DNA from: Rikenellaceae bacterium
GTDB taxonomy: Bacteria; Bacteroidota; Bacteroidia; Bacteroidales; Rikenellaceae
Length of the DNA: 64,000 nucleotides
NCBI GenBank assembly: GCA_020859685.1
Contig: JAJBVT010000098.1
Location: 1 to 64,000 of the forward strand
Reading direction: 5' to 3'
Both the position numbers and the translations under genes were made by a program. The notes below the pieces were generated by a model, which made no database searches, was not told the DNA's origin, and was given only the letters and a program-made list of their open reading frames with translations. How positions within the stretch are numbered: position 1 is the first letter of the stretch; each line of letters starts with the position of its first letter. Below are positions 752 to 38,413 of the stretch, in pieces.

Positions 752-1240
752 TCATTCCTCCTCACACCCCCTGAAGGTGAAATATTTCTGCATCAGGTAG
801 CTGTAAACCGTAACTATTATATTTATAACGGCTTTGGAGGGGGTGGGATAAAAGTGGAACGTTTCGACAAACAATTTCATCAGGGCATAATTTATCAGCA
901 GCGCCCCGGAGACCGACAAACCGTAGCGGAACAGTTGCACCCGCCCCCTCAAAGGAGACTTCCGGAACGCCACATACCTGTTGAGCAGGAAACCGTTGAA
1001 GAACGTAATCGGGAAAACCACGCACAGGGCCGCGATATATGGTGAAACCACCACAAACCCGAGGTCGATTAACTGTTTTTGGAATATGAAATGGAATGCT
1101 ATAAAATATAGAACCGTGTCGAGCACGAGGTTAAGACCGCCGCTGACCCCGTACCGAAACGTCTGCAATGGTATGAATTTGCGGAACGGCTTGTAAAAAA
1201 AGTCAATTAACCGGGTAAGCAGGTGGAAGAACGAACTCAT
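752..1240 (-). CDS. GtrA-like membrane protein
   Basis: A 162-residue protein with four hydrophobic segments (about 38-58, 67-88, 101-120 and 133-150), the size and layout of the GtrA/DPMS family. GtrA proteins help move polyprenyl-linked sugars across the inner membrane for modification of surface polysaccharides. The FRYGVSGGLN stretch near residue 29 and the LNRYVAFRK motif after the second helix fit the family. Its start ATG overlaps the uvrB stop by four bases (ATGA), so translation is probably coupled and the gene shares the uvrB transcript. No partner glycosyltransferase is visible, so the substrate is unknown. The pairing with uvrB gives no functional hint. Confidence 0.8.
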   Translation of the reverse strand: MSSFFHLLTRLIDFFYKPFRKFIPLQTFRYGVSGGLNLVLDTVLYFIAFHFIFQKQLIDLGFVVVSPYIAALCVVFPITFFNGFLLNRYVAFRKSPLRGRVQLFRYGLSVSGALLINYALMKLFVETFHFYPTPSKAVINIIVTVYSYLMQKYFTFRGCEEE

Positions 1241-3255
1241 TTCTTTCTCATTTCGTCCAACCTCTCCTGCAGGGCATACATCAGATCGCGGTATTTCGCG
1301 GCTTCCATAAAATCGAGTTCCCTCGCCGCCTTCTCCATCATTTCACGGGCTTTGGCTATGCCGGTCTCCACAGAATGTATATCGTTGTAACCCGCCTGTA
1401 ACTCGGCTGCGAGCGAAACAGGTGCACCGGTCGGATAGAGAACGTTTGCGGAATCGGCTCTCTCGGCCCCGAGTACGGAACGGGTGCTTTTATGAGCGGC
1501 CCGGGGAATCATGTTGTGATTCATGTTATAGGCTATCTGCTTCTCCCGGCGGCGGTTACTCTCCATAATGGCCATCGCCATCGAGTCAGTCCGCTTCTCC
1601 GCATACATTATTACGTTACCGTTGGCATGCCGGGCAGCCCGGCCGGAGGTCTGTGTAAGCGAGCGTTCGCTGCGCAGGAATCCCTCTTTATCCGCATCCA
1701 TGATAGCGACGAGCGATACCTCCGGGAGGTCGAGGCCTTCACGCAGAAGGTTCACCCCTATCAGTACGTCGAACAGGCCCGAGCGCAGGTCGTCGAGAAT
1801 CTGCACCCTTTCGAGGGTCTCGATATCGGAATGTATATAGCGGTTGCGGATACCGATCCGGTCGAAATATTTCGAGAGTTCCTCCGCCATCCGTTTGGTA
1901 AGGGTCGTGACGAGTACCTTCTCCTCGACTTTGACCCGCCGGTTAATCTCCTCCATAAGGTCGTCTATCTGGTTGTCGGTAATACGGACCTGAAGGGGCG
2001 GGTCGATGAGGCCGGTCGGGCGGATAAGCTGTTCCACCACGGCGCCTTCCGAGCGTATGAGTTCGTAATCGGCGGGTGTGGCGCTTACGTATATAGTATC
2101 GCCCATCAGTGCCTCGAATTCGTCGAATTTTAGCGGCCGGTTATCGATTGCCGCCGGGAGCCTGTAACCGTATTCCACGAGGTTCTCCTTTCGCGAGCGG
2201 TCGCCGCCGTACATGGCCCTTATCTGCGGAATGGTAACGTGACTCTCGTCGATAACGAGCAGGTAATCGTCCGGGAAGTAATCGAGCAGGCCGAACGGCC
2301 GGGTGCCCGGCGGGCGGCCGTCGAAATAGCGCGAGTAGTTCTCTATCCCCGAGCAATACCCCAGTTCCTTTATCATTTCGAGGTCGAATTCGACCCTCTG
2401 CTTTATCCGGCGGGCTTCGGCCGTTCGGCCTGATTTCTCGAAGAAGTCGATTTGTTTACCGAGGTCGTTCTGTATCTGCGCAATCGCTGTATTTATCCTC
2501 TCCTTGGTCGTAACGAACATATTGGCCGGATAGACGATTGCCCGCTCCACGACTCCCGTGCGGTTACCGTTTACGGGATCGATAGTATAGATAGCCTCGA
2601 TTTCATCGTCGTAGAACATTACCCGGTAGCACATATCCCCGTAGGCCAGACGGATATCGAGGGTCTCGCCGTTTAACCGGAACGTACCCCTTTCCAAATC
2701 GTTCTCGGTACGGGTATACAAACCCTCCACCAATTGATACAGGACTTTTTTACGGCCTATCACCTGCCCCTGCTCGAGCTTGACCGAGGTAGCATGGAAA
2801 TCCTGCGGATTCCCTATGCCGTAAAGGCAGGAGACGCTGGAAACTACGATTATATCCCGGCGGCCAGAGAGCAGGGAAGAGGTCGTTTTAAGCCGCATCT
2901 GCTCGATCTCTTCGTTTATCGACAGGTCCTTTTCAATATAGGTGTCGCTGGATGGAATGTAAGCCTCGGGCTGGTAATAGTCGTAATAGGAGACGAAGTA
3001 CTCCACCGCGTTTTCAGGAAAGAAGCCTTTGAACTCGCCGTATAACTGTGCCGCAAGGGTTTTATTGTGGCTGAGCACGAGCGTGGGACGCCGGAGATCC
3101 TCGATTACGTTTGCGACGGTGAATGTCTTACCCGAACCCGTAACACCCAGCAGAGTATTGTGCCCGCTGTGACCCCTTATCGAGGAGACGAGTTCCGCAA
3201 TGGCTTCGGGCTGGTCGCCCGTCGGTCTGTAATCTGAAACCAGCTTAAAATCCAT
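1237..3255 (-). CDS. uvrB: Excinuclease ABC subunit B
   Basis: UvrB is the damage-verifying helicase-like subunit of nucleotide excision repair. It is loaded by UvrA and recruits UvrC for incision. The 672 residues have the normal family length. Visible features are Walker A GVTGSGKT (lysine 43), the beta-hairpin YYDYYQPEAYIP near residue 92 that is inserted between DNA strands, the VIDESH Walker B motif near residue 336, the helicase motif QTSGRAARH in the second RecA domain, and a C-terminal UVR motif (about 630-668) that binds UvrC. The start ATG lies only four bases after a TAACTTTG promoter box, so the message may have almost no leader. gtrA follows in the same transcript. Confidence 0.98.
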   Translation of the reverse strand: MDFKLVSDYRPTGDQPEAIAELVSSIRGHSGHNTLLGVTGSGKTFTVANVIEDLRRPTLVLSHNKTLAAQLYGEFKGFFPENAVEYFVSYYDYYQPEAYIPSSDTYIEKDLSINEEIEQMRLKTTSSLLSGRRDIIVVSSVSCLYGIGNPQDFHATSVKLEQGQVIGRKKVLYQLVEGLYTRTENDLERGTFRLNGETLDIRLAYGDMCYRVMFYDDEIEAIYTIDPVNGNRTGVVERAIVYPANMFVTTKERINTAIAQIQNDLGKQIDFFEKSGRTAEARRIKQRVEFDLEMIKELGYCSGIENYSRYFDGRPPGTRPFGLLDYFPDDYLLVIDESHVTIPQIRAMYGGDRSRKENLVEYGYRLPAAIDNRPLKFDEFEALMGDTIYVSATPADYELIRSEGAVVEQLIRPTGLIDPPLQVRITDNQIDDLMEEINRRVKVEEKVLVTTLTKRMAEELSKYFDRIGIRNRYIHSDIETLERVQILDDLRSGLFDVLIGVNLLREGLDLPEVSLVAIMDADKEGFLRSERSLTQTSGRAARHANGNVIMYAEKRTDSMAMAIMESNRRREKQIAYNMNHNMIPRAAHKSTRSVLGAERADSANVLYPTGAPVSLAAELQAGYNDIHSVETGIAKAREMMEKAARELDFMEAAKYRDLMYALQERLDEMRKK

Positions 3256-3259
3256 TCTG

Positions 3260-3267
3260 CAAAGTTA
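3260..3267 (-). promoter_or_regulatory. uvrB promoter -7 box
   Basis: On the minus strand this reads TAACTTTG, a full match to the Bacteroidota TAnnTTTG box. Only CAGA lies between it and the ATG, so transcription should start at or very near the start codon. I find no clear TTTG element 19 bases upstream. Confidence 0.55.
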
Positions 3268-3554
3268 TAAATTGCTTCGGGAAAAAGAGTGGGCGGCCGG
3301 ATACAAATTCCCAGGATAAGGTATCCGGCCTTGAAACTGTAAGAACACCGGCGCCACCCGGACTGATAATCACTACAACCGGGCTTACCTCCAACGAATT
3401 GAATATTTTATCGGACCTGATTATCTATTATTGCCGGGTTATATCCGGCATTATAATTGGGGTAATAGCCGGGGATATAATATTGAGAATCAATAACGGC
3501 AAAAAAGAAGCCAGAAAAGATAAAGGATTTTCATGTTTATTGTATTTTTTATTA

Positions 3555-3562
3555 TAATTTTG
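3555..3562 (+). promoter_or_regulatory. Promoter -7 box ahead of the nested hairpin
   Basis: TAATTTTG fits TAnnTTTG exactly and lies in an AT-rich tract. Start of transcription is expected about five bases downstream, which is where the outer arm of the hairpin begins (3566). The upstream -33 element is not clear. Confidence 0.45.
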
Positions 3563-3565
3563 CCT

Positions 3566-3651
3566 TTGCGAAAAATCCTATCATGACGCCGTTCGGAGGA
3601 AATAAATATCCTCCGGTATAGCTGGTTGCGGCGTCTGGGGATTTTTCGCAA
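3566..3651 (+). ncRNA. Putative structured small RNA (nested hairpin)
   Basis: Three nested perfect stems are visible. The outer stem is 13 bp (3566-3578 TTGCGAAAAATCC with 3639-3651). The middle stem is 7 bp (3585-3591 GACGCCG with 3629-3635). The inner stem is 7 bp (3594-3600 CGGAGGA with 3609-3615) closing an 8-base loop. Interior loops are uneven (6/3 and 2/13 bases), which is more like a folded RNA than a simple terminator. A TAATTTTG box stands just before the 5' arm and a T-rich stretch (ATTTTCT) follows the 3' arm. I do not recognise the class. It does not fit 6S RNA (too short), SRP RNA (no conserved loop) or tmRNA. It could also be a mobile palindromic element. Confidence 0.4.
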
Positions 3652-3892
3652 TTTTCTCTACTGCCTCACCGGCTTACCGGAGGTTACTTTCATCGACACG
3701 ACAATTTCCCGTAACCTTCATTGCCCTCCTCCCTCTCAGACCCCAAAATTAACCACTTAGGCCTAAATTCCGGCATCCGGTGACCTACTAAATATTTTTA
3801 TTGCAATATTAGCCACTGGCTTAACCCCGGCGTATCGTCTAATGGAACAATTTTATGGCACTCCGGAGGATAGGGCTTAGTCAACTTCTTGC

Positions 3893-3900
3893 TATCTTTA
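3893..3900 (+). promoter_or_regulatory. dnaG promoter -7 box
   Basis: TATCTTTA is a near match to TAnnTTTG, nine bases before the dnaG ATG. The nine-base leader ends in CCTGTT, as it also does at smpB (8875-8883). Confidence 0.5.
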
Positions 3901-3909
3901 CATCCTGTT

Positions 3910-38346: not shown

Positions 38347-38364
38347 GGCCATGTTTAGGATATA

Positions 38365-38400
38365 AAAAATAAACCCGCGTCAGCCCGCGGGTTTATTTTT
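38365..38400. terminator. Bidirectional terminator after citrate synthase
   Basis: A 15-bp stem (AAAAATAAACCCGCG with its complement) and a 6-base loop with A-run and T-run at its feet, between two converging genes. Confidence 0.9.
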
Positions 38401-38413
38401 ATATCCTGATGTT

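Follow-up and report, generated by a model that had tools for sequence, protein, structure and literature searches.

A candidate small RNA, proposed in the initial annotation, is located in the uvrB-dnaG gap of a gut-type Rikenellaceae bacterium, near the start of the 64,000-nucleotide stretch of DNA that was analysed (the window). Comparison with related genomes supports this assignment, in that the fold is present in three congeners, the element is single copy, its stems show compensatory changes, its promoter box is fixed and it matches no Rfam family. A central segment of the hairpin, identical in four species, has a second conserved partner downstream, which suggests that the RNA has two states, with this core exposed in one and hidden in the other.

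The gap (3256-3909) of about 650 bases separates uvrB (1237-3255, - strand) from dnaG (3910 onward, + strand), which are DNA-maintenance genes that are transcribed divergently. As initially described, this stretch is gene-free: no conserved small ORF lies within the element, and the absence in the four species of a shared ORF of at least 10 aa across it speaks against a small-protein gene. The sequence TAnnTTTG corresponds to the -7 element of the Bacteroidota primary sigma factor (PMC7366714), and the features of the gap, all but the first on the + strand, are as follows.

3260-3267, - strand: uvrB promoter box, TAACTTTG, adjoining the uvrB start.
3555-3562, + strand: TAnnTTTG (-7) box of the element, TAATTTTG, the third box within the gap, with the hairpin directly 3' of it.
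3566-3578, + strand: 5' arm of stem P1; one pair shows an A-U to G-C double change, and the remaining core P1 pairs are invariant.
3585-3591, + strand: 5' arm of stem P2, GACGCCG; one pair shows a G-C to A-U double change, and 0 of 7 pairs are broken.
3594-3600, + strand: 5' arm of stem P3 (segment 1), first partner of the core; pairs with 3609-3615 in all four species, with one G-U in G003.
3610-3627, + strand: invariant core (segment 2), CCTCCGGTATAGCTGGTT (= CCUCCGGUAUAGCUGGUU), identical in four species; P3 3' arm plus an 11-nt bulge.
3629-3635, + strand: 3' arm of P2, pairing with 3585-3591.
3639-3651, + strand: 3' arm of P1, followed by a U-rich tail that may be a terminator (T1).
3669-3683, + strand: segment 3, CCGGCTTACCGGAGG, complementary to the core and its alternative partner (pseudoknot).
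3684-3691, + strand: T-rich run after segment 3, TTTTTAGG in G002 and ATTTTTGG in G003, a possible second terminator (T2).
3893-3900, + strand: dnaG promoter box, TATCTTTA, near the dnaG ATG and conserved in four species.

The three nested perfect stems of 13, 7 and 7 bp were confirmed at the coordinates first given. The view that such a fold is unlikely by chance also stands, since the minimum free energy of 3555-3660 is -45.9 kcal/mol as compared to -23.8 +/- 3.1 for shuffled sequences (z -7.1; 0 of 200 as stable), and the z-scores in the other three species are between -5.5 and -6.9. In terms of raw energy the hairpin ranks about 14th among the non-overlapping 106-nt stretches of the window, and those ranking above it are nearly all GC-rich (54-74%, versus 44% for the hairpin), the exceptions being two terminator-like hairpins at 44-45% GC. 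As the raw energy is unexceptional in the window, the case rests on the composition-corrected stability and on the cross-species comparison. Elsewhere in the window, two strong hairpins with AT-rich arms (38360-38408 and about 220-260) look like ordinary bidirectional terminators. Among the 12 bases 3' of P1 there are 6-8 T, and a terminator pattern search, the loop limit of which is 8 nt, made no call there.

The orientation of the element is indicated by the fold and by the box. The + strand fold is more stable than that of the - strand in all four species, and G-U pairs, summed over these species, number 12 in the + strand fold as compared to 2 in the - strand fold. The box that had been noted ahead of the outer arm ends three bases from it, and its position is kept in all four species, where it reads TAATTTTG, TAATTTTG, TATTTTTG and TACTTTTG. 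Given that it lies at a constant distance of 5-6 bases from GCGAAAA in each of them, the RNA should begin at the foot of P1, with an expected start at about 3566-3568 in the P1 5' arm. A -33 TTTG motif is not evident ahead of the element. The TAnnTTTG at a conserved position in four species is consistent with the own promoter expected of an intergenic sRNA gene, and because uvrB and dnaG each have a box of their own, the element need not be a leader. Two further features were observed in the gap: a TAATTTTG box on the - strand (3744-3751) that points toward the RNA and could yield an antisense transcript, and, upstream of the RNA, a small hairpin of 8 bp with a T-rich tail on the + strand (3432-3450; TGCCGGGTTATATCCGGCA). 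Similar features were seen in G004, and neither was evident in G002 or G003.

A homologous fold in relatives, which had been expected of a genuine RNA, was found at the same uvrB/dnaG site in three congeners (G002, G003, G004). Three of the six congeners (G001, G005, G006) are without the element, and in G005 uvrB and dnaG are still neighbours although the RNA is missing; this narrow phylogenetic range was overlooked in the initial annotation. The hairpin shows 71-91% identity overall, namely, 91% for the close pair formed by the present genome (G000) and G004 and 71-80% for more distant pairs. In these distant pairs the outer flanks show 35-40% (3260-3520) and 40-57% (3701-3880) identity, the corresponding value for the close pair is 74-79%, and identity at uvrB fourfold-degenerate sites is 38-51%. 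Hairpin identity is thus far above that of the flanks and the fourfold sites, which indicates strong constraint on the hairpin. Compensatory base changes, anticipated for an RNA, were also seen: of 19 pairs counted in P1 and P2, 16 are invariant, 2 show a double change (A-U/G-C, one per stem) and 1 has an unpaired cell, so that double changes account for both pairs whose type varies. The outermost P2 pair has an unpaired cell only in G000, is U-A in G004 and is readable as C-G in G002 and G003 after a gap shift. Pairing was lost in a control in which the partners were slid. The two clean double changes split the same two species pairs and thus reflect few independent events, and the covariation evidence, from four sequences, is suggestive and short of formal proof. 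Taken at sequence level, a conserved RNA-like fold at an orthologous place is present, as expected for an intergenic sRNA gene.

The initial annotation had named many copies elsewhere in the genome as evidence against an RNA gene. The element is single copy in the genome, and the multiple dispersed copies typical of a mobile repeat or REP-like palindrome were not found. The statement that it fits no common RNA class was borne out by Rfam 15, no family of which (including 6S, SRP, RNase P, tmRNA and riboswitches) matched at its gathering score, and a search with E up to 10 gave nothing credible. A covariance-model search covering 268 genomes from the family and 393 from the order, a heuristic first look that may miss distant members, retrieved no further member; DNA similarity searches of plasmids and phages gave no homologue, and the exact core motif, the only query used there, had no match in viral contigs. 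Several other candidates were discarded. A second DNA-search match in G002 (L013) is without hairpin context and looks coding, and it was not considered a paralogue, while weak model matches in G238 and G033 are unrelated hairpins. Core-motif matches with 1-2 mismatches in other Rikenellaceae look coding, many of them in the same gene, and none has the hairpin context. Cesiribacter, an acidobacterium and a chloroflexi contig each have an exact core match; these were attributed to chance, the Cesiribacter sequence being the one inspected, and across the family the P1-arm pattern occurred in the four species and in one stretch of G010 that looks like chance.

In several relatives of other genera, the uvrB-dnaG gap measures about 60-170 bases. 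Comparison of these short gaps with the about 650 bases found here suggests that the RNA arose as the gap widened in the ancestor of the four species. The uvrB-dnaG gaps of G005 and G017 (L019 and L025) contain repeats, each roughly 75-85 nt long and of the type CAAAGATAGTGAAAGCCGAGAG...CATCCTGTCTTCTA, that resemble a hairpin repeat dispersed among the intergenic regions of Rikenellaceae.

The core is the most conserved stretch of the element; its first bases form part of the P3 3' arm and the rest a one-sided bulge. Its downstream partner at 3669-3683 was absent from the initial account. The word CCGGAGG is conserved 26-29 bases past P1 in the four species, and the complementarity between segment 3 and the core extends over roughly 13-16 bp and is kept where the neighbouring sequence has drifted. 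The duplex energies are -28.5, -27.4, -25.3 and -21.8 kcal/mol in the four species, values that were matched by at most 1 of 1000 shuffles. When CCGGAGG was held fixed, pairing of the bases upstream of it exceeded that of shuffled bases in three species (p 0.001, 0.003 and 0.007), and the value for G003 was not significant (0.21). As the core is invariant, its pairing with segment 3 cannot show covariation.

Maintaining P1 and P2 and replacing P3 by the helix of core and segment 3 produces an H-type pseudoknot, for which the linkers appear to be long enough. The energies of the hairpin and pseudoknot forms, with the loop penalty left out, are -53.4/-59.0, -55.5/-59.8, -46.9/-57.5 and -49.1/-54.3 kcal/mol, so that, before the pseudoknot penalty, the pseudoknot is favoured by 4-11 kcal/mol in summed energy. 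Such penalties usually amount to several kcal/mol, and once one of this size is added, the two forms would be of similar energy. A core with two mutually exclusive conserved partners, the P3 5' arm and segment 3, is as expected for a switching RNA.

The best explanation, which we consider evenly poised, is an independent small structured RNA gene with two states set via segment 3 and with the bulge as working site. The + strand would be transcribed from the element's own TAnnTTTG promoter, starting at 3567 or one to two bases off, and the RNA would be about 90 nt long if it ends past the hairpin, or about 125-135 nt if it ends past segment 3. The invariant core UAUAGCUGGUU, which bulges out on one side between P2 and P3, would be the site at which a target RNA or a protein is engaged. 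When the RNA is long enough to include segment 3, this segment would invade P3 and base-pair along the full core, forming an H-type pseudoknot that covers it. The active site would consequently be accessible in the hairpin and inaccessible in the pseudoknot. The sequence basis for this model comprises the conserved fold, its orientation, the promoter box, the invariant core and its two exclusive conserved partners; transcription, the RNA ends, switching and action on targets are what we infer from it.

A possible, though somewhat unlikely, alternative is a stable sRNA without a switch, in which the finished hairpin ends at its own U-rich tail and uses the 11-nt bulge to bind a protein or RNA, with segment 3 lying outside the transcript or forming only a weak second terminator. 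The T-rich run directly 3' of P1 in all four species is in line with this, as are the nested folding model, which strongly favours the hairpin, and the capacity of CUCC/GGAG to pair locally inside segment 3. However, segment 3 retains about 13-16 bp of complementarity amid drifted neighbours and at near-constant spacing. An improbable possibility is that of a dnaG leader or attenuator, in which alternative folds would set read-through from 3567 into dnaG: the element shares its strand with dnaG, segment 3 ends 226 nt upstream of the dnaG start, and three segments that pair exclusively, with T-rich runs, are reminiscent of attenuators, but dnaG has its conserved box beside the ATG, adjoins uvrB in G005 without the RNA and is preceded by a region (3701-3880) that is mostly unconserved except in the close pair G000/G004. 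We consider it very improbable that the element acts at the DNA level, as a cruciform or inverted-repeat operator serving the divergent promoters. The long inverted repeat within a divergent gap, the good folding of the - strand as well and the inverted repeat CCTCCGGTA/TACCGGAGG would be compatible with this idea, whereas the G-U pairs fall on the + strand fold, the conserved bulge and the fixed promoter box are each one-sided, and the distances to the uvrB and dnaG starts are about 300 and 260 bp, respectively, with several relatives having gaps of 60-170 bp. A mobile palindrome, degenerate transposon end or plain terminator, suggested by AT-rich arms like those of ordinary terminators elsewhere in the window, is largely excluded by the single copy, the plasmid, phage and viral searches without match, the lack of an upstream + strand gene needing termination and the constraint on core and stems.

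As for the targets of the proposed two-state RNA, among the loci read, no site complementary to a 13-nt stretch of the core (CCAGCTATACCGG, up to 1 mismatch) is common to all four genomes beyond the element itself, and seed-target matches were fewer than with a reversed-pattern control. The separate boxes of uvrB and dnaG and the relatives without the RNA make a role in cis less likely than one in trans. With moderate confidence, we favour an RNA that acts in trans, its bulge being the working site and its 3' segment the cover.

The element is best filed, on present sequence comparisons, as a narrow new sRNA family of a known general kind. It shares with attenuator leaders a central segment with two exclusive partners and a T-rich run after each hairpin, but differs from them in that there is probably no dependent gene directly downstream, dnaG having its own promoter box. 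It resembles 6S RNA and 6S-Flavo (RF01685) as a long imperfect hairpin that probably has its own promoter; however, it has no Rfam match to E 10 and is without a large symmetrical central bubble. Its length is about half that usual for 6S RNA. Bacteroidales-1 (RF01693; PMC2864571) is another structured RNA candidate from Bacteroidales, but it spans 179 positions, gave no above-cut-off match in the genus (seven genomes, G000-G006) and is not the same element. GibS of Bacteroides thetaiotaomicron (PMC7366714) is, as the element appears to be, a genus-restricted intergenic Bacteroidales sRNA with its own promoter, although GibS is about 145 nt long, largely unstructured and has a 5' seed, whereas the present element is a nearly fully paired hairpin from its probable 5' end. 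The likeness to RydC of Enterobacteriaceae (PMC4337610) concerns a stand-alone small regulatory RNA with a conserved pseudoknot that, when disrupted, gives way to an alternative stem-loop form. RydC is Hfq-dependent, has no known sequence relation to the element and presents a seed at its 5' end; the conserved core of the element, by contrast, lies internally, and formation of the pseudoknot would conceal it. No obvious Hfq homologue is present in Bacteroides (PMC7366714). If the switch model holds, the element would act in a somewhat RydC-like manner, probably without Hfq. That it represents a kind of two-state sRNA undescribed in Bacteroidota, with a promoter-proximal hairpin of ~30 pairs, an invariant one-sided bulge gated by the RNA's own 3' tail through a pseudoknot of 13-16 bp, and activity set by a ligand or by whether termination is early or late and hence where the 3' end falls, is a doubtful proposition.

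No report on sRNAs of Rikenellaceae was found in the open-access literature, and small-RNA work in the Bacteroidota comes mainly from Bacteroides. The element is seemingly a selected, lineage-specific RNA gene that arose in an often-short gap, and as such it would be a clean case for the birth of sRNAs. It also bears on the possible use of self-gated RNAs by bacteria in which no Hfq is obvious, and, because its two pairings are conserved and exclude one another, the proposed switch can be tested directly.
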